Shown here in pieces: positions 10,090 through 48,835 of a stretch of 63,460 nt of DNA (within the stretch, counting starts at the first letter, position 1; every line of letters begins with the position of its first letter). The notes below the pieces were generated by a model. That model made no database searches and was not told the origin of the DNA. It saw only the letters and a list, made by a program, of their open reading frames with translations. The translations under genes were made by a program, and so were the position numbers. The DNA is from Syncephalis fuscata (taxonomy: Eukaryota > Zoopagomycota > Zoopagomycetes > Zoopagales > Piptocephalidaceae): the NCBI GenBank assembly GCA_025786725.1, contig JAHLTZ010000067.1, positions 1 through 63,460 of the forward strand, given 5' to 3'.

Positions 10090-10474
10090 TTTGCTATAAA
10101 TTTTAAGTACATATAGACTAATGAACGAATGAGTGACATTAGTCGAGATTTATTAATAATTAAGCCAGAGTCAAACAAACAATGGTTCTAGACGGCGCAT
10201 GTTCAATATATAATAAAATAATGTACATTATAATGAATATACTAACTGAAGCAACGATTAGCCTTACTAAAGCTATTGAGCATATATGCATGAGCAAATG
10301 ACCGACATTAGTCGACATTTATTAATAATGATGCTAGAACAAAAATAATAACAGTTTTGGATAGTGGAAGGCTATACAAATATAAAATAATATTGAATAT
10401 AATGAATATACAATGAAAAGGATATGATAAATGGTGTTAAATTTATAGTGCATATAATGCAATGAGAGGAATGA
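10090..10474 (+). repeat. Dispersed repeat (R1 family), left flank of satellite
   Basis: Shares diagnostic stretches with R1 copies elsewhere, such as GAGCATATATGCATGAGC, the motif around AGTCGA followed by ATTTATTAATAAT, and TATAGTGCATATA. The satellite begins directly after this segment. Confidence 0.55.
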
Positions 10475-12710
10475 GCATTTGTGCTAAGCATTATGTGTTA
10501 GCATTTGTGCTAAGCATTATGTGTTAGCATTTGTGCTAAGCATTATGTGTTAGCATTTGTGCTAAGCATTATGTGTTAGCATTTGCGCTAAGCATTATGT
10601 GTTAGCATTTGCGCTAAGCATTATGTGTTAGCATTTGCGCTAAGCATTATGTGTTAGCATTTGCGCTAAGCATTATGTGTTAGCATTTGCGCTAAGCATT
10701 ATGTGTTAGCATTTGCGCTAAGCATTATGTGTTAGCATTTGCGCTAAGCATTATGTGTTAGCATTTGCGCTAAGCATTATGTGTTAGCATTTGCGCTAAG
10801 CATTATGTGTTAGCATTTGCGCTAAGCATTATGTGTTAGCATTTGCGCTAAGCATTATGTGTTAGCATTTGCGCTAAGCATTATGTGTTAGCATTTGCGC
10901 TAAGCATTATGTGTTAGCATTTGCGCTAAGCATTATGTGTTAGCATTTGCGCTAAGCATTATGTGTTAGCATTTGTGCTAAGCATTATGTGTTAGCATTT
11001 GTGCTAAGCATTATGTGTTAGCATTTGTGCTAAGCATTATGTGTTAGCATTTGCGCTAAGCATTATGTGTTAGCATTTGCGCTAAGCATTATGTGTTAGC
11101 ATTTGCGCTAAGCATTATGTGTTAGTATTTGTGCTAAGCATTATGTGTTAGCATTTGTGCTAAGCATTATGTGTTAGCATTTGTGCTAAGCATTATGTGT
11201 TAGCATTTGTGCTAAGCATTATGTGTTAGCATTTGTGCTAAGCATTATGTGTTAGCATTTGTGCTAAGCATTATGTGTTAGCATTTGTGCTAAGCATTAT
11301 GTGTTAGCATTTGTGCTAAGCATTATGTGTTAGCATTTGTGCTAAGCATTATGTGTTAGCATTTGTGCTAAGCATTATGTGTTAGCATTTGTGCTAAGCA
11401 TTATGTGTTAGCATTTGCGCTAAGCATTATGTGTTAGCATTTGCGCTAAGCATTATGTGTTAGCATTTGCGCTAAGCATTATGTGTTAGCATTTGCGCTA
11501 AGCATTATGTGTTAGCATTTGCGCTAAGCATTATGTGTTAGCATTTGCGCTAAGCATTATGTGTTAGCATTTGCGCTAAGCATTATGTGTTAGCATTTGC
11601 GCTAAGCATTATGTGTTAGCATTTGCGCTAAGCATTATGTGTTAGCATTTGCGCTAAGCATTATGTGTTAGCATTTGCGCTAAGCATTATGTGTTAGCAT
11701 TTGCGCTAAGCATTATGTGTTAGCATTTGCGCTAAGCATTATGTGTTAGCATTTGCGCTAAGCATTATGTGTTAGCATTTGCGCTAAGCATTATGTGTTA
11801 GCATTTGCGCTAAGCATTATGTGTTAGCATTTGCGCTAAGCATTATGTGTTAGCATTTGCGCTAAGCATTATGTGTTAGCATTTGCGCTAAGCATTATGT
11901 GTTAGCATTTGCGCTAAGCATTATGTGTTAGCATTTGCGCTAAGCATTATGTGTTAGCATTTGCGCTAAGCATTATGTGTTAGCATTTGCGCTAAGCATT
12001 ATGTGTTAGCATTTGTGCTAAGCATTATGTGTTAGCATTTGTGCTAAGCATTATGTGTTAGCATTTGTGCTAAGCATTATGTGTTAGCATTTGCGCTAAG
12101 CATTATGTGTTAGCATTTGCGCTAAGCATTATGTGTTAGCATTTGCGCTAAGCATTATGTGTTAGCATTTGCGCTAAGCATTATGTGTTAGCATTTGCGC
12201 TAAGCATTATGTGTTAGCATTTGCGCTAAGCATTATGTGTTAGCATTTGCGCTAAGCATTATGTGTTAGCATTTGCGCTAAGCATTATGTGTTAGCATTT
12301 GCGCTAAGCATTATGTGTTAGCATTTGCGCTAAGCATTATGTGTTAGCATTTGCGCTAAGCATTATGTGTTAGCATTTGCGCTAAGCATTATGTGTTAGC
12401 ATTTGCGCTAAGCATTATGTGTTAGCATTTGCGCTAAGCATTATGTGTTAGCATTTGCGCTAAGCATTATGTGTTAGCATTTGCGCTAAGCATTATGTGT
12501 TAGCATTTGCGCTAAGCATTATGTGTTAGCATTTGCGCTAAGCATTATGTGTTAGCATTTGCGCTAAGCATTATGTGTTAGCATTTGCGCTAAGCATTAT
12601 GTGTTAGCATTTGTGCTAAGCATTATGTGTTAGCATTTGTGCTAAGCATTATGTGTTAGCATTTGTGCTAAGCATTATGTGTTAGCATTTGTGCTAAGCA
12701 TTATGTGTTA
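10475..12710 (+). repeat. 26-bp satellite, 86 units
   Basis: Perfect-register tandem array. Each 26-bp unit is two related 13-mers, AGCATTTGYGCTA and AGCATTATGTGTT. The only common variation is T or C at one site (TTGTG versus TTGCG). Reading the array gives runs of T4, C15, T3, C3, T11, C23, T3, C20, T4, and one unit with GTATTT instead of GCATTT at about 11125. Each 13-mer carries a short dyad (AGCA...TGCT), and GCTAA...TTAGC spans the junction. No ORF is encoded. The role is unknown; a satellite of subtelomeric, pericentric or origin type is possible. Confidence 0.95.
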
Positions 12711-12970
12711 GCATTATGTGCTAGCATTATGTGTTAGCATTATGTGCTAGCATTATGTGTTAGCATTATGTGCTAGCATTATGTGTTAGCATTATGTGCT
12801 AGCATTATGTGTTAGCATTATGTGCTAGCATTATGTGTTAGCATTATGTGCTAGCATTATGTGTTAGCATTATGTGCTAGCATTATGTGTTAGCATTATG
12901 TGCTAGCATTATGTGTTAGCATTATGTGCTAGCATTATGTGTTAGCATTATGTGCTAGCATTATGTGTTA
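12711..12970 (+). repeat. 26-bp satellite, second subfamily, 10 units
   Basis: Continues the first array in exact 26-bp phase, but the first 13-mer is replaced by AGCATTATGTGCT, so the unit becomes two copies of nearly the same 13-mer differing at one base. Ten units are followed by one decayed half-unit (ACATTATGTGCCAGCATTTT). Confidence 0.95.
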
Positions 12971-13299
12971 ACATTATGTGCCAGCATTTTTAACAACATT
13001 CGTGTAAGTAACTACATATCCGTTTTATTGAACATGAAACTAAATGCTAAATAGTATCAATCATTAAAATATTCATTATTGTATATTCATTATCTAGTAC
13101 GCATATATCATCATTACAATACTATGTTGTTACTGTTTATGTTATTTTATTTCTAACTTTCTTTCTATACATACTTATCAACTCATCGCGTTTCTGTTTT
13201 CCTTGAACTTGCTATTACTGCGAATATCCATCATTTTACTTGATCAACATTAAAGTTATAATCAATTTGTATTAACTAATTGTCAACCAGATAGTTACA

Positions 13300-20852: not shown

Positions 20853-23201
20853 AAAGGGAAATTTTGAAAAATACACCGTTTCTCAGTTTTAATTACAAAA
20901 ATACTTTTTTCTTGTTTTATAAAATAAATACACTGCTTTTCACTTTTATTTAGGAAAATACGTTGTTTTTAAACTTTACCATAATAAATTATTATTTTTT
21001 AAGCATATTGTAATAAATTTAATAAATAAAAATAAATCGTTCTTTGATTTTATTTATCAAGATACGCCGTTTTGAAAAGCCTATCGCAATGTCTACCAGC
21101 TTATTTAAAAAAGCTATATTTAACAGCATTGAAGAACTAAGTATTGCTGTTGACGAGTTTAAGCTTGTTAACGGTTGCAATTTAAGAGGAAAAATAGTGA
21201 TTCAACAAGATTACGGCTTATTTGCCCTCATGAAGACCATTTTAGCAACAAATATCAGTTTGTTTTGACTGCCAGAAAGCAGAAAACTGGCTTAGTAAAG
21301 ATTGTTCAATGCAATCTTGAGCATCTTAATGACTGTCCATATAACACGGGTAATGGTACTATTAAGTCTATTGCTAAATATATTACGAATGATGTTGCTA
21401 CATTTTCAATTGTAAAACCAAAAGATGTACAAAGAAAACTATTAAAGTAGGTACATATTTGATTATTTAATATACACTAACAACTGTAATAGTTCAACAG
21501 GAGTCGATATTTCTTATTACAAAGCTTGGTCCGCCCTTAATTCAATGAAAAATAATGATATTAACAGCAATATCAATTCTTTTTCATTTATTAAAGATTA
21601 CCTTATCAAATTTAAACATTTTAATCCGGGTTCTGTTCAGCACTTCTCGCAGAACCAGTCTGGTAACTTTGAAAGGGCATTTTTATGTCCTTCATCAGCT
21701 ATTAAAGCTTACCACTATACTCGTAAAGTACTGGTAATTGATGGCTGCCATTTGAGATCTTCTTATGGCGGTGTTGCTCTTACTGCGGTTGTTGAAGATG
21801 GAAATAACAATATTTTCCCTTTGGCTGTTGCTATAGTATCTCATGAAAATGAAAACAACTGGGTCTATTTTCTTAAACATCTATCAGATTCAATACCTGA
21901 ATTAAGAGAAAAAAATCAAGTCATCATTAGCGACAGAGATAAAGGAATAGAGTCTTCGATAAAAACTGTATTTCCCTTGGCACACCACTCTGCATGTGTT
22001 GCTCATATCGAAAGAAACATCAATGCTGAATTTAAAACAAAGCTTAATGGTTTAATATGAAAAGCTGCAAAAGCTTTAACTAGTAAAGAATTTGATGGTA
22101 TTTATATTTATTTAAATTACATTCAAAGTACTAATTTATTTTCTAGATTCAATGAAAGTGATACGGTCATTAAATGAGCCAGCTTATAACAAGCCAATAG
22201 ACTCAGAAAAAAACTGGGCTAGATCATTTTTTAAATGGTCAAGATTTGGTTGCGTTACTTCAAATTCATCAGAGTCATTGAACTCATGGATGAACGACCT
22301 TCGGAACAAATCCCATTATCAATTTTTTACTGGATTTGTCGCCAAAGTTGGAACTTTGTTGAATAAGCGTAGAATTAAGTATTCACAAACTCAAGGATTG
22401 TTAACTAATAATAGCTATTTGTTGTATAAATCAACATTAACTGACGCTAATAATTATATAATTGACGATTATTCTGATTCCAAATTTCAAGTTAAAGATA
22501 TCAAGTCTGGTATTGTCAGAACAGTAGATTTAACTGCAAAAACCTGCACATGTGGATACTGGGAAGAGATGAAGTTTGTTTGTAGTCATGTGGCAATAAT
22601 TTCAAAGAATCTTAGGCTTTTATTAGATGATTTTATTGATAAATCTTACACCATTGATTATTTAAGCAAACTATCTGCTCCAAATATTTGTCGGGTTGAA
22701 ATGGAATTAATTACTGCAGACATTTCGTGTTTGCCACCGACAATAACGAAGAAAGCCAGTAGACCAAGAGTTAAAAGAATTAGATGTTATAGTAAAGCTT
22801 TGAAAGTCACCCAACAATATACTGTCGCAATTGTAGCTTAAAAGGACACAATACAAGAATATGCACTGTAAACACTAGCATTAGTAACGTTAAAACAAAC
22901 ACTTTTATTGAAGAACAAATACAAACTACTAGTGAAACGGCTATTAAGAAAAGAAAACGTGTTATTAAAGAATGCTTAATTTGTGGTGAACGCCATTACA
23001 AGAAAACGAAGTGTGGGGTAAATAAAAAATGATTTTATTTATTATGATAAAGTTTTAAAAACAATGTATTTTTCTAAATAAATTTGAAAAGCGGTGTATT
23101 TATTTTATAAAACAAGAAAAAAAGGAATTTTTTTTAGAATTTAAAAAAAGTATTTTTGTAATTAAAACTGAGAAACGGTGTATTTTCCAAAATTTCCCTT
23201 T
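20853..23201 (+). mobile_element. Mutator-like (MULE) DNA transposon, decayed
   Basis: 2.35 kb element with long terminal inverted repeats: left 20853-20942, right 23085-23201. Both start AAAGGGAAATTTTG, include AATACACCGTTTCTCAG, and are near identical apart from a roughly 26-nt insertion in the right copy. No convincing 8-11 bp target duplication remains. Between the repeats lies a transposase pseudogene. It is inserted between the fold-back element and the EFG1 gene. Confidence 0.9.
21089..23032 (+). pseudogene. MULE transposase pseudogene (DDE plus SWIM zinc finger)
   Basis: Order seen: an N-terminal MULE DNA-binding-like region (21160-21450, RLICPHEDHF), an intron at about 21446-21491, a DDE/MULE core with VIDGCHLRSSYGG and IISDRDKG, a C/H block ACVAHIERN, a second 49-bp intron ending 22146, a conserved SESLNSWMNDLRN glutamate block, a SWIM finger CTCGYWEEMKFVCSH, and a CCHC knuckle CRNCSLKGHNTRIC near 22830. 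Three lesions: a frameshift near the A-run at about 21185, a TGA at 22058-22060 where the family has Trp (I-W-K-A-A), and a frameshift just before the CCHC knuckle. The product would not be functional. Confidence 0.88.
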
Positions 23202-34128: not shown

Positions 34129-35303
34129 TTTTGTGCTGTGTATTACAACTAAAATTTTAAGCGCTTTAGAATATATATTAGAAATTTAAAATTTTAATAA
34201 TTTACTTTGCCGTTACATTATGGCGCTATAATAAATTTAATGGCACTTTTGTTATAATTAACAAATATTTAATTGATTTAGAACGTTTTTTAGTCTGTTT
34301 GACTAATAATTTTAATAAACATGATATAATAATTAAATTATTTATTTATTTAATACACTCATTTTTATTAAATAATAAATCAAAGTGCTTAATCAATCAC
34401 AATTCTTATAACTTATACCCGTTGCTTATATAACTGTATGATATTTTAAAATACGTATCAATTCAATTAATATTATTATATTTATTATACATGTATTTAT
34501 TGCTTATAATGTGTGTTTAGCAAGTAGTAGTACAACTACTGTTCGTGTCTAATTGTTATGCCCGCCTTATTTATACATTAGTCACTGTTTTTGACCTACT
34601 TCATTTCATCGCTTTAAGTGTCAGTTTTGCTTACTACTTGCATTATACTGCTTTTGTTGAGTAGTTTGACTAAGTTGTTACACATTCTACTATTATTTAA
34701 ATAATGATATTGATCGTTGATTACGTTCACTTATACAGATAAAGTGGCTGTAACTAGTCTTATTAAATGCTGCTAGTTTAATTTAACTATACAAAGCTAC
34801 TTTGTATGTTTTGCATGAACATTTTGAACACAAGTTATCACATGCCTAAACGCTGTAGATTTATATAGCATATTTATAATTTAAATGGCCAACATTGTCA
34901 TGTTATTTGCTTTATTGATTTTATTGTCTAATTAAAGGCCAATGTTGGCACCACCATAAATTTATATTTAGAAAATAGCATACAAAGTTTTAGCAGATTA
35001 CTAAATATAATTGAAATAAAACTATTGTTTATTACCACATGTTTGCATAGCTGAATAAACACAGCTAAATGCAGTCTTGTTAGTAGTATAATAGTACTGT
35101 TGGCTAAAAGTTGAATAAACTAAAGCATTGAACGGAACTTGATATATGGATGAACTGAAAGGCATACTTGTCAAATGATCTTGTTTTATGCCAAATGGGC
35201 ACTTAAGGTGTGCTGAACAATTAAACCGCTGCATTACCAATGCTAACATATTGGAGATACAAGTTATTTATGCTCATAAACATATACAGCCCATGTCATA
35301 TAT
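34129..35303. other. AT-rich spacer downstream of the microexon gene
   Basis: No supported gene. A 75-codon minus ORF (35022-35249) lies just downstream of the microexon gene's stop on the same strand, but has no signal or domain and may simply be 3' UTR. Confidence 0.4.
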
Positions 35304-36587
35304 CTAGTATATCGGCCAGCGACGTATGATCTCAGTTATTACCTATTAATAAGTGTTATTGAACGTACAACAAATAGTATGTAATTAGTATACAGCTAAT
35401 TAAAAGCAACATCACTTACCGTCTATTAATAGCAATTAGTGAACACACAGCAAATAGTATGCAATTAGTACATAACCAATTAAAAACAACACCGCTTACC
35501 GGCTATCAATATACATTAGTGAACGAACAGAAAATAGTATGCAATCAGTGATAGTTAGCTGCTATGGTGTTTCACTTACGACCTATTCGTACAAGTTGTT
35601 AAACATGCATAGTATATAGTGTATGTTCAGCACATAATTAATAAATATGTAATTTCACTTACAACCTGTTATGATTAAATCATTGACAGACACAGTACAT
35701 ATAATGTGGTGAATATACAGACATCTAATATGCAACATTACTTACATCCTATTAATATTGAGTTATTAGTAACAGCGAATAGCATGAAATTAGCTCATAG
35801 CCGATTATTATATAACGCCACTTACTAACTATTATATTCAATTATCAATCCATAAATACATAGCATATAAGTGATAAATAGCTAATTGACATGCAATATT
35901 ACTTACACGCTATCAATATTAGGTTGTTAATACACAAATAAACACCATGTAATTAGCGTATTTTTAATCAGCATAAAACATTACTTACTAGCTATTCATG
36001 TTAAATTATTGGCCCACACAATGTATAGCATGCAATTAGTGCGCGGTCAATCAATATATAGAATTACTTACGACCTGTTATATTGCATTGCCAATACACA
36101 CAGTACATAGCGTGTAGTTAGAGTATAGGCAACCGATATACAATACCACTTACAAACTATTCATATAAAATTGTTGACATAAACAGTGCATAGCATGCAG
36201 TTAGCCCATAGTCGCTTAATATACAGTATCACTTACTGCCTATTAATATTAAATTGTCGATACACATAATATGTAGTATTCAGTTAGTGTATATTCAACT
36301 AATATTCAGCACTGCTTACATTCTAATAATAGTAAATTGTTGGTAACGAATAGTATAAGATTTTTGCCCAATTATTTATTATACAGTGCTACTTACTGGC
36401 TATTATATTCAATCGTCGACAAAATATCATTAGTTATTAATACACTGATAGGCATAATGTTGATGCATATTTGTTGTAATTAAAACATACCAGTATTTAC
36501 TTGAGCTGGCACGGCATCCACTGTGACTGTATTAGTCACAAAAACTACGAAAAGGACGCAAGCAGCAGTAATGGAAAGCTTCATCAT
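35304..36587 (-). CDS. Candidate microexon gene: secreted peptide with thirteen 3-nt exons
   Basis: Exon 1, 36587-36501, codes a signal peptide (two starting Met, then hydrophobic core, ending VDAVPAQ; cleavage near VDA). Thirteen 3-nt exons follow, lowest bases at 36397, 36320, 36237, 36154, 36072, 35989, 35907, 35826, 35746, 35663, 35580, 35500 and 35420; they code PNAFVLRLDVVPT. The terminal exon 35342-35304 codes VITEIIRRWPIY and TAG. All junctions are phase 0, giving 54 residues, about 29 after signal removal. Every 3-nt exon has YAG before it and GTAAGT (11) or GTAAGC (2) after it. Intron 1 is 101 nt, the others about 75-80. It is divergent from a secreted pseudokinase gene. Alternatives: the codons are recursive-splicing steps and are skipped, or the array is a non-coding tandem repeat. 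Splicing is inferred from sequence only. Confidence 0.6.
35343..36500 (-). repeat. Tandem array of related intron-like units (77-83 bp period)
   Basis: Fourteen intron-like segments, each starting GTAAGY (first GTAAAT) and ending YAG, separated by 3 nt. Steps between successive 3-nt gaps are 77, 83, 83, 82, 83, 82, 81, 80, 83, 83, 80, 80 and 78 bp. Interiors share features such as ACTAATTGCATGCTAT and a CAATAATTTAATAT-like segment before the acceptor, but have diverged. The splice-site bases are kept while the 3-nt gaps differ. Confidence 0.85.
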
Positions 36588-37249
36588 GGTATTGTTTGTT
36601 ATGGTATTGCTTGTTGAAACAAAAAAGTAGAATGGATGATAGAGTGAAGTAAGGATACCGTTGATTAGTTGTGTACACTTTATGGCCTATTTGAATCTAT
36701 AACTATGGTAACATATTAACATGCTGATTGTATGAAATATACCATTGATATGCCATGTAAACCAATAGCAACACGTCCACGTGGTAACTTGAAACATGCA
36801 CAGAGTAATAGATTGATAGTGTGATAGCATTATGCATATTCTATGTTTCAGCCTATTCGGCAATTACACAAAAATTCGGCGATATCAAGTATCCAGTATA
36901 TATGTGCTGTAAACAAACATCAACCTGCTTTTTGTTTCACACTGAAGTCAGATTAAAGTCCAGCTGACCACTGAGTTTTTGAAGCATGCACAGAGTAATA
37001 GATGGATAGCATGTGTCAATATATCTATATATAGATAATATTATGAATATTTGGGGCACAACAATTTAATAGGCAATGATATCATGACTTGTCTTGATAT
37101 AGAAACAGCAAAGAATAAAATAATAAAACGCAAAAAATACATAAACATGCAGTCTATTTAGTATGTTTGTTCAGTATTTTACAACATATAAACTATTCCT
37201 TACACTTATCCTTTTATGCATTTTTTTGCAAAAGTAACGAGCTATAAAC
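36588..37249. promoter_or_regulatory. Divergent promoter region between two secreted-protein genes
   Basis: 660 bp shared 5' region of the microexon gene (-) and the pseudokinase gene (+). It contains two related segments, both with AGCATGCACAGAGTAATAGAT-like sequence (about 36792 and 36981), a possible repeated control element. Confidence 0.4.
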
Positions 37250-46764: not shown

Positions 46765-48310
46765 CTAGTAACAGGTAATAATTCACCATCACTTAGTTTT
46801 TACCATATAAATTAACAACAATATGTATTCTCATCATCATAATATACTACTACTATTATATTAAGTAAATATTTAGTATATAAATTATTAATTAATTAAA
46901 TAAATATAATATTACATCCGATTGTTTACTGTCTTACCTGTATTCACATACTTTTATTGTTCAAGCTAATACAATACTTAAAAAGTAGCGATTTTGATGA
47001 CAGAGATAAATTAGAAAAGAACGCAGTGATGTGACTTTATAATGTTTAGATAATTGCGCTTTAAATACGTGAATTAATAAATGTTGATCATTATGCGAAC
47101 AGCTACTATCAGGACTTTTACTAGTATTTAAAGGTTAAAAATACTACAAATACATAGACAATAAGATAGAAAAAAAGGTTGTTTTATTACAAGTTGTGTA
47201 CCAATTGTATGATTTATATAGTCTTAGAGTAGCGTAATATATAGATACACTGCTAAAGCTAGTGCTTGTTTTTATATAGTAAAGCTGAAAGAATAGTAAT
47301 GAAAATAATAAAATATTTGCTAAATGACAATAGGAAACAAACAAGTAAGCAAATATATTACTAATTGGCCATGTGACAACATAATCGCTATTTAGATTGG
47401 TAAATGGTTAATGGTTGTATTAAGACGACAACTGCTTTATTAATAGATACATTTAGTAATGTGCACTAGTAGACACATCACTATAATGTATAATAATGTG
47501 TAAAAAATGTAAAACTGGCCACAAAAGTAGCAATAGCTTTACATAGAATAAGTCAAATTGTATAGTATTTTGCACAAGTATTCATATGATATATAGATAG
47601 CTATTGATAAAGTATACCGCAATTACATAGCGCGATAGTGTAATGGTAGTGATGATACGTTAATAAATGTGCAAAAATAGCAGTTTTTTACTGTTTATGG
47701 CTTGTATAATTAAAATACAGCAAAATAATTGGCAGATTCGAGTTCCCCATGCTAAGCTTTACCGTCTGGTATAAGATTTAGAACAATGATTTTTGCAACA
47801 AATGTTAGTCAAAAATGCAGTCTACGTATAAATTAACAAAAAGTGACTAGACTTTATAATTTCAAGCAATTTAATACTAATAATTAAATTTGGCTTAAAG
47901 TAAATTCAAAGCATTCTACAACACTAAAACAAGCATAATAAGTTGTTATGCATAAATAACGACATATAGTAGTAAGTTATGCCATATATTTACATATAGC
48001 AGATTTTCATTAAGCTACTTATGTAAATCGTATTTTTGACTAACATTTGTTGCAAAAATCATTGTTCTAAATCTTATACCAGACGGTAAAGCTTAGCATG
48101 GGGAACTTGAATCTGCCAACTATTTTGCTGTATTTTAATTATACAAGTCATAAACAGTAAAAAACCGCTATTTTTGCACATTTATTAACGTATTATCACT
48201 ACCATTACACTATCACGCTATGTAATTGCGGTATACTTTGTCAATAGCTACCTATATGTTATACACACACTTATGCGAAGTATCAGACAATTTGCTTCAT
48301 TATACGTAAA
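46621..48310 (+). repeat. 1.7-kb direct duplication (copy 2 of 2)
   Basis: Near-identical to 18772-20462. Here it begins inside the LTR-like element downstream of tRNA-Lys and runs through fold-back locus 3. Confidence 0.9.
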
Positions 48311-48835
48311 GTTATACGTATTATTATCGATGTTTTACTATATGTATTTAAACAATGTAAACTGCATTTTTGACTAACATTTGTTGCAAAATCATTGTTT
48401 TAAATCTTATACCAAACGGTAAAGCTTAGCATGGGGAACTCGAATCTGCCAACTATTTTGCTGTATTTTACTTATACAAGCCATAAACAGTAAAAACTGC
48501 TATTTTTGCACATTTATTAACGTATTATCACTACCATTACACTATCGCGCTATGTAATTGCGGTATACTTTATCAATAGCTATCTATATATCATATGAAT
48601 ACTTGTGCAAAATACTATACAATTTGACTTATTCTATGTAAAGCTATTGCTACTTTTGTGGCCAGTTTTACATTTTTTACACATTATTATACATTATAGT
48701 GATGTGTCTACTAGTGCACATTACTAAATGTATCTATTAATAAAGCAGTTGTCGTCTTAATACAACCATCAACCATTTACCAATCTAAATAGCGATTATG
48801 TTGTCACATGGCCAATTAGTAATATATCTGCTTAA
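47341..48835. mobile_element. Fold-back element, locus 3 (three-arm palindrome)
   Basis: Outer palindrome centred at about 48090 joins 47341-47760 to 48410-48835. Inside is a second F-R pair centred at about 47924. Arms: forward about 47590-47815, reverse about 48030-48255 and 48370-48595. One B-box-like copy reads GATTCGAGTTCC, closest to the Pol III consensus. Confidence 0.8.

Follow-up and report, generated by a model that had tools for sequence, protein, structure and literature searches.

Predicted serial 3-nt exons in a family of putatively secreted peptides of the mycoparasite Syncephalis fuscata

Introduction

In schistosome microexon genes (MEGs), as described in PMC5825161, about 80% of the coding region lies in symmetric exons of 6-36 bp; they encode proteins of secreted or exposed type, as the genes considered here may also do, and, like these in their predicted structure, consist mostly of short exons that keep the reading frame (PMC5825161). 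Alternative splicing gives rise to variation among MEG proteins. The bicycle genes of aphids, in the account given in PMC9168663, have internal exons that are almost all of phase 2, and many of their proteins carry CYC motifs; like the present genes, they form a large and fast-evolving family of putative effectors in which the exons are small, numerous and of one phase (PMC9168663). Among filamentous fungi, Trichoderma virens has one regulated microexon in the transcription-factor gene Xlr2, an instance of a functional microexon in such an organism (PMC11121469). A 1-nt exon in Arabidopsis APC11 and 3-nt exons in animals, for example in Drosophila homothorax, indicate that the spliceosome handles exons of 1-3 nt, and intron definition with stepwise removal was proposed in those reports (PMC4674806, PMC7392893). 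Recursive splicing ratchet points, in which acceptor and donor stand almost back to back, likewise suggest stepwise removal (PMC8605326), and fungal introner-like elements offer a parallel in the many related introns that they place in one genome (PMC4457414).

The genes described here belong to the fungus Syncephalis fuscata, and the starting point was one locus in a stretch of 63,460 nucleotides (contig JAHLTZ010000067.1 of GenBank assembly GCA_025786725.1, positions 1 to 63,460 of the forward strand; hereafter the window). Their predicted products recall conotoxin-type venom precursors, in which a conserved signal is followed by a hypervariable, cysteine-rich mature peptide under diversifying selection; the resemblance lies in the signal and the hypervariable cysteine-rich peptide, and the mature regions of conotoxin-type precursors are not known to be split one exon per codon. 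The species of Syncephalis, a genus in the Zoopagales, are mycoparasites, and a review credits the genomes of Syncephalis and Piptocephalis with few secondary-metabolite genes in comparison with the mycoparasitic Dimargaritales (PMC10386755), so that peptides may carry much of the chemistry of these two genera.

By examining the window locus, its counterparts throughout the S. fuscata genome and the intronless members of the same family, we arrive at the view that this fungus very probably possesses a large family of secreted peptides that evolve fast and whose mature part takes one exon for every codon.

Results

The array in the window

The original prediction described, on the minus strand, thirteen sites of the exact form YAG-NNN-GTAAGY at intervals of 77-83 nt, and on re-reading of the window all thirteen sites and their spacing were confirmed. 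The pattern occurs 14 times on the two strands of the whole 63 kb window, 13 of these within the array, whereas 100 dinucleotide shuffles of the window gave a mean of 1.92 matches and a maximum of 5; with 14 matches against 1.9 expected, and 13 of them in the array, the observation stands.

Read in phase 1, the gene (all features on the minus strand) opens with exon 1 at 36491..36587, which holds the start codon, a signal-like segment, the pro-region (MMKLSITAACVLFVVFVTNTVTVDAVPAQVNT) and the first base of the next codon, and which ends at the donor GTATGT. Intron 1 (36400..36490, 91 nt, GTATGT...ATAG) is followed by microexons 1 (CCA, 36397..36399), 2 (AAT, 36320..36322), 3 (GCA, 36237..36239), 4 (TTT, 36154..36156), 5 (GTC, 36072..36074), 6 (CTA, 35989..35991), 7 (CGT, 35907..35909), 8 (TTA, 35826..35828), 9 (GAT, 35746..35748), 10 (GTT, 35663..35665), 11 (GTC, 35580..35582), 12 (CCG, 35500..35502) and 13 (ACG, 35420..35422), each placed by the pattern scan and the splice reading. 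Introns 2 to 14 (74-80 nt each) span 35343..36396 with microexons 2-13 between them, which brings the gene to 14 introns of 74-91 nt with a summed length of 1,109 nt, and the terminal exon begins at 35332..35342 with GT AAT AAC TGA, read in phase 1 as G-N-N-stop. The resulting frame, entered through the first donor ACTG/GTATGT, is open over 48 residues with four cysteines among the last 16. Its predicted product is MMKLSITAACVLFVVFVTNTVTVDAVPAQVNT-AKCICPTFRCCPDGNN, with a signal-like start and a cysteine-rich end; exon 1 and the 13 microexons join to give MMKLSITAACVLFVVFVTNTVTVDAVPAQVNT AKCICPTFRCCPD GNN and then the stop.

A profile built from 200 family introns matches all 13 introns of the span 35343..36396. 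The only other match at E<=0.01, with none in the window away from the array, is the array's own 3' edge at 35337-35274, immediately after the last acceptor, which is still like an array intron (E 0.006); further downstream, inspection by eye finds sequence resembling the terminal-acceptor region usual in the family, its AG changed. Together these make the GNN end less certain than the rest of the gene, and the true last acceptor could sit further downstream. A sister of the window gene on contig C267 is 98.9% identical over 1.3 kb, with zero changes in the microexons.

Elsewhere, the window holds an acyl-CoA dehydrogenase exon with 99% identity to an S. fuscata protein, a 26-bp tandem repeat at 10474-12975 (96 copies, 99% matches) and a 332-bp tandem duplication at 48021-48654 (1.9 copies, 88% matches). 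Two open frames at 21545-22841 resemble, by eye, parts of a MULE-type transposase, and a minus-strand frame of 616 aa at 231-2081 carries a long His/Gly-rich repeat and, close to its start, a hydrophobic stretch.

Recurrence of the pattern in the genome

The locus is not a lone odd gene: elsewhere in the genome the site pattern is found thousands of times. A donor followed after 62-92 nt by YAG NNN GTAAG, enclosing a 3-nt exon, has 3,355 matches against 35 in the reversed control; the corresponding patterns with exons of 4 nt and 6 nt have 52 and 114 matches, against 45 and 29. For three sites in a row the 28.95 Mb assembly has 2,424 exact matches and the reversed control has none, and the difference between 3,355 and 2,424 suggests about 930 runs, several of which may lie within one gene. 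With the window's exon 1 as query, 104 places were found in its own genome at E up to 0.065, while two longer family proteins gave 315 and 313 candidate places, 150 of each being scored. On an estimate from these pattern and query counts the family probably comprises hundreds of genes, the counts being inflated by near-identical duplicated segments in the assembly and so not numbers of independent genes.

Near-identical arrays in opposite orientation and tens of kilobases apart occur on contig C1 (476223-477501 and 531727-533409, with others near 575 kb and 610 kb), which suggests either large recent inverted duplications or an assembly effect. Among the 52 matches of the 4-nt control, 13 share the strand of a family exon 1 and stand some 1.0-1.4 kb upstream of it (for example C2:224164, C13:197318, C79:326789 and C289:164525), so that a conserved far-upstream element seems to be part of the unit that is duplicated with the gene.

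Structure of forty loci

Forty of the 104 exon-1 places, all found with the window exon 1 as query, were read individually. Exon 1 ends in a donor at 31 of them (GTATGT in 26, GTACGT in 3, GTAGGT and GTATGA in one each), always in phase 1, and at the remaining 9 a single open frame runs onward with no intron after exon 1. A hydrophobic, signal-like N-terminus was seen by eye in the 40 loci, which had been picked by just such a query. The pro-region ends in Arg-Arg, presumably a Kex2-type site, at 32 of 40 loci; the window gene lacks it.

The split loci were parsed with a segment model that uses splice-site matrices, places a flat prior on exon lengths of 1-33 nt and imposes no rule of reading frame. 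Initial training of these matrices was on YAG-NNN-GTRAGY sites, with re-estimation afterwards, which leaves the parse not wholly blind to exon length; the genome-wide pattern counts are independent of it. A version allowing exons of up to 90 nt was dropped, as it gave false exons of about 75-90 nt; exon length was therefore capped at 33, and GC donors were admitted later. Internal exons were found in 29 of the 31 split loci (none in L062 and L072), and of 420 such exons 399 are 3 nt long and 411 are a multiple of three. In 7 of the 29 loci at least one exon has a length not divisible by three. By eye, use of a neighbouring AG or GT would turn the exons of 4, 4, 2 and 7 nt in L041, L048, L070 and L074 into exons of 6, 6, 6 and 3 nt, although they are still scored as misses within the 411 of 420; in L046 one parse yields a 2-nt exon. 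L078 and L076 have 27 and 28 predicted exons in stop-free frames. Among the predicted products are DPGLVCVEKCKKNWMGPEPVACRFECGV for L078, AQDPAKCERCVERCARIRRQNCAEKCKDEC for L076 and, rich in proline, AETSLPTPTLPIPTISTPPPAG for L069. One or more introns of 162-580 nt are present in each of the three genes, and such over-long introns in otherwise good genes, as in L076 and L078, may hide exons or inserts.

Among the donors of the 420 exons, 324 are GTAAGT and 11 begin with GC, nine of these being GCAAGT; some exons skipped by a GT-only parse carry GC donors. Since skipping any 3-nt exon would preserve the frame, the microexons might instead be used alternatively, each gene yielding many peptides by omission of single codons and thereby a combinatorial library. 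We consider this unlikely, though it deserves some weight: mostly consensus donors are what constitutive use would lead one to expect, and two matches to intronless members, described below, fit full inclusion.

Reading phase and translational constraint across junctions

The original prediction had read the window gene in phase 0, with exon 1 ending at 36501 instead of 36491 through the donor CAA/GTAAAT, and a product of 54 residues with the C-terminus VITEIIRRWPIY. That frame does exist and is open from end to end, and among the upstream exons of a 302-junction sample none of 302 is a stop codon when read in phase 0. A frame test on translated arrays failed to separate the two phases, with stops at 0/290 in phase 1, 1/290 in phase 0 and 26/290 in phase 2. 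What separates them is the relation between neighbouring exons, because codons in phase 0 do not span introns and so cannot give rise to any rule from one exon to the next.

Such a rule is found. For TAA and TAG formed across the intron in phase 1, the genome-wide test gave an exon starting in AA or AG at 9 of 778 junctions where the upstream exon ends in T and at 381 of 2,001 with other endings. The nine stops compare with 148 expected under independence, a 16-fold depletion (Fisher p 2e-46) that would be difficult to account for if the codons were not joined and translated; the nine that persist count against our preferred explanation. In the sample of 302 distinct junctions from the fetched loci, compared with 2,000 re-pairings of the exons, phase-1 stops numbered 0 against 11.0 expected and phase-2 stops 26 against 23.8, while cysteine codons numbered 30 against 11.4. 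Phase 0 leaves both the avoidance of stops and the enrichment of cysteine at junctions unexplained, and all 31 split loci have the phase-1 first donor. The 54-residue frame is real as an open frame and unsupported as a product: the family donor, genome-wide stop avoidance and the cysteine pattern all point to phase 1. The earlier reading is probably wrong in this respect, and phase 0, which the junction tests lead us to reject, is very improbable for the window gene.

The same results bear on whether the array is translated at all. Array units are homologous and duplicate in tandem, and repeats can carry variable cores, so one might regard the array as an unspliced tandem repeat resembling a minisatellite, with units of about 80 bp whose core is hypervariable, the splice-like motifs being part of the repeat. 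Such a repeat would not be expected to avoid stops between neighbouring units in one phase only and across an intron of about 80 nt, nor to replace the GT donor, at 11 of 420 sites, with GC (nine GCAAGT), a change that the spliceosome tolerates; moreover, in two cases the cores, once joined, agree with the coding sequence of intronless members. On these three grounds we reject a minisatellite, to which we give almost no credence, in favour of spliced and translated arrays.

Intronless members and shared flanks

Two S. fuscata proteins of the family, P0127 and P0128, are each encoded by one uninterrupted coding stretch. Joined in phase 1, the exons of L068 give CKCQ-DEGNCTSC, matching CKCRDDDGYCTSC of P0128, and those of L076 give DPAKCERC, matching NPAKCKEC of P0127, with scores of 52 and 53 for L068 and L076 in phase 1 against 23-28 in the other phases, a further point against phase 0. 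None of 500 shuffles of exon order reached the observed score in either gene (p 0.002 each), and a control with shuffled residues gave p 0.002 and 0.006. In L068 a 3-nt exon with a GC donor, skipped by the GT-only parse, supplies the missing aspartate that completes CKCQDEDGNCTSC. For the remaining 17 of 19 genes, which include near-copies of one another, no intronless match reached p<0.01 (L078, p 0.03), and in several of the 17 a wrong phase scored equal or higher; this is what hypervariable peptides would lead one to expect, yet it lends no support.

Split and intronless members also have flanking sequence in common. An alignment was obtained for 16 upstream regions, of which 12 belong to split and 4 to intronless genes; 13 carry taaata at the same position, the exceptions being L031, L040 and L043, and the window gene has, at 36688..36695 on the minus strand, TTCAAATA as a weak counterpart of this AT-rich box. 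Between split L062 and intronless L063 the identity is 99% across 494 nt reaching as far as the end of exon 1. Five of seven intronless genes tested share some 60-260 nt of 3' flank with split genes (the other two, L049 and L075, have no 3' flank in common with them), and the window gene's 3' flank at 35112..35210, minus strand, resembles that of intronless L067 (77% over 99 nt). From these shared upstream and 3' flanks, the split and intronless layouts look like versions of one gene family. In the intronless genes L043, L044, L063 and L067 what follows the stop resembles the tail of the last array intron, and some retain its acceptor AG; keeping this end, they are not simple copies of a fully spliced mRNA.

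Common flanks on both sides would also be found if the arrays were silent or decayed copies of genes that had been contiguous before introns invaded them, and some loci do look broken. Genome-wide stop avoidance and the stop-free frames of 27 and 28 exons in L078 and L076, however, show present or recent constraint, and we regard decay as highly unlikely beside functional one-codon exons.

Used as a query against proteins, the family alignment yielded 16 at E<=1, every one from S. fuscata, and a Pfam search of 10 family proteins gave nothing above the cut-offs. An AlphaFold model of intronless P0127 was poor (pLDDT 61, pTM 0.28). The deposited family proteins P0124, P0126 and P0131 seem by eye to run on into array introns, for which reason these public gene models look wrong.

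Divergence of codons, donors and introns

Conservation of splice-site bases relative to intron interiors, proposed in the original prediction as a comparison between related strains, was checked on paralogues. Thirteen gene pairs were aligned, and six one-to-one pairs were used for rates, the second gene of each being unconstrained by the parse. Two pairs were dropped because array units had turned over and were not one-to-one (L046/L038 and L034/L038, with microexon changes of 16/36 and 22/33), two as nearly identical (L036/L037 and L078/L077) and three as too distant for a trusted alignment (L076/L078, L041/L076 and L048/L041). Over the six pairs, 9 of 503 bases had changed at donor positions +1 to +6, 14 of 336 at acceptor positions -4 to -1 and 359 of 6,765 in the rest of the intron, so that the donors are clearly kept and the acceptor stretch, taken as a whole, is hardly conserved above the intron.

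Within arrays, codons diverge faster than introns while donors are kept. In 25 non-overlapping pairs of units from the same gene (8 genes), chosen at >=90% identity of the distal intron, the three exon positions differ in 28, 20 and 44% of cases, the distal intron in 4% and donor positions +1 to +6 in 0.7%, the last figure being partly by construction since the parse requires GT/GC and AG. In the pairs L073/L064 and L069/L064, which both contain L064 and in which AG and GT/GC are likewise required by the parse, codon positions 1 and 2 had changed in 19 of 58 cases, the wobble position in 2 of 29 and the introns in 288 of 2,866, rates that fit diversifying selection acting on the phase-1 peptide. 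Four close pairs, among whose genes three form one trio, had 0 changes in 153 microexon bases against 71 in 3,899 intron bases, a difference that is not significant (p 0.11) and that gives no sign of exon hypermutation.

Discussion

Splicing throughout is deduced from constraint on the sequence, and on that footing a gene of secreted type built from serial 3-nt exons in a fungus, as originally proposed for the window, is supported. Exon 1 would provide a signal-like segment and a short pro-region, and each later 3-nt exon would complete one codon with two bases and open the following codon with its third; with 3-nt exons in phase 1, the removal of 14 introns of 74-91 nt would add the mature peptide residue by residue, approximately as AKCICPTFRCCPDGNN. 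The spliceosome would recognize each intron singly, by intron definition, and probably stepwise, as splice sites 3 nt apart can hardly be occupied together; the near-consensus GTAAGT donors would offset the lack of an exon. The peptides would then be secreted and, in those relatives that have Arg-Arg, processed after it.

Among described systems, the arrays are set apart by exon length and by arrangement. MEG exons of 6-36 bp, as given in PMC5825161, differ from those of S. fuscata, where 399 of 420 are of 3 bp in long runs, and the organisms belong to different kingdoms; length in multiples of three does hold here, for 411 of 420. Bicycle genes, in the account of PMC9168663, differ from the present exons of 3 nt, with phase 1 in 31 of 31 loci, and no CYC motif is present in the predicted products of the S. 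fuscata loci parsed. Where Xlr2 has, as reported in PMC11121469, a single microexon, S. fuscata has long serial arrays in peptide genes; and where the ultra-short exons covered by PMC4674806 and PMC7392893 stand isolated in ordinary genes, here often 10-28 are predicted serially and would form the mature product. A ratchet point, following PMC8605326, has an exon of zero length and leaves nothing behind, whereas a step in S. fuscata would leave one codon, AG and GT being separated by three bases at all 13 window sites. Introner-like elements, as presented in PMC4457414, differ in that the S. fuscata introns form arrays in one family and duplicate together with a codon. Having looked for the defining feature of MEGs, bicycle genes and ratchet points and found it in none of these comparisons, we do not assign the arrays to any of the three; they appear to be a new and extreme variant of the microexon-gene kind, far beyond known microexon genes. 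Among the matches listed in the open-access literature there was no earlier report of serial 3-nt exons or of this peptide family.

As to function, the mature peptides may act extracellularly on the host fungus or on competitors and may be under diversifying selection, so that signal exon, flanks and donors would be kept while the mature peptides diversify. Arrays would grow through duplication of units of intron plus codon. Beyond this, with a probability that we place a little short of even, the layout of one codon per exon may itself be an engine of diversity: related introns of about 80 nt flanking every codon would let recombination add, remove, duplicate or swap single residues with the frame intact, while splicing would join the codons step by step, giving an evolvable library of hundreds of host-directed peptides.

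If so, S. fuscata would hold a peptide library invisible to normal annotation, and the case shows how a large family of secreted peptides can stay hidden from it. Were 10 to 28 consecutive 3-nt exons joined by a spliceosome, exon recognition would have a new limit, and intron definition and stepwise splicing could be tested directly in a single organism. For the arms race between parasite and fungal host, the arrays would offer a natural form of exon shuffling at the level of the single residue.
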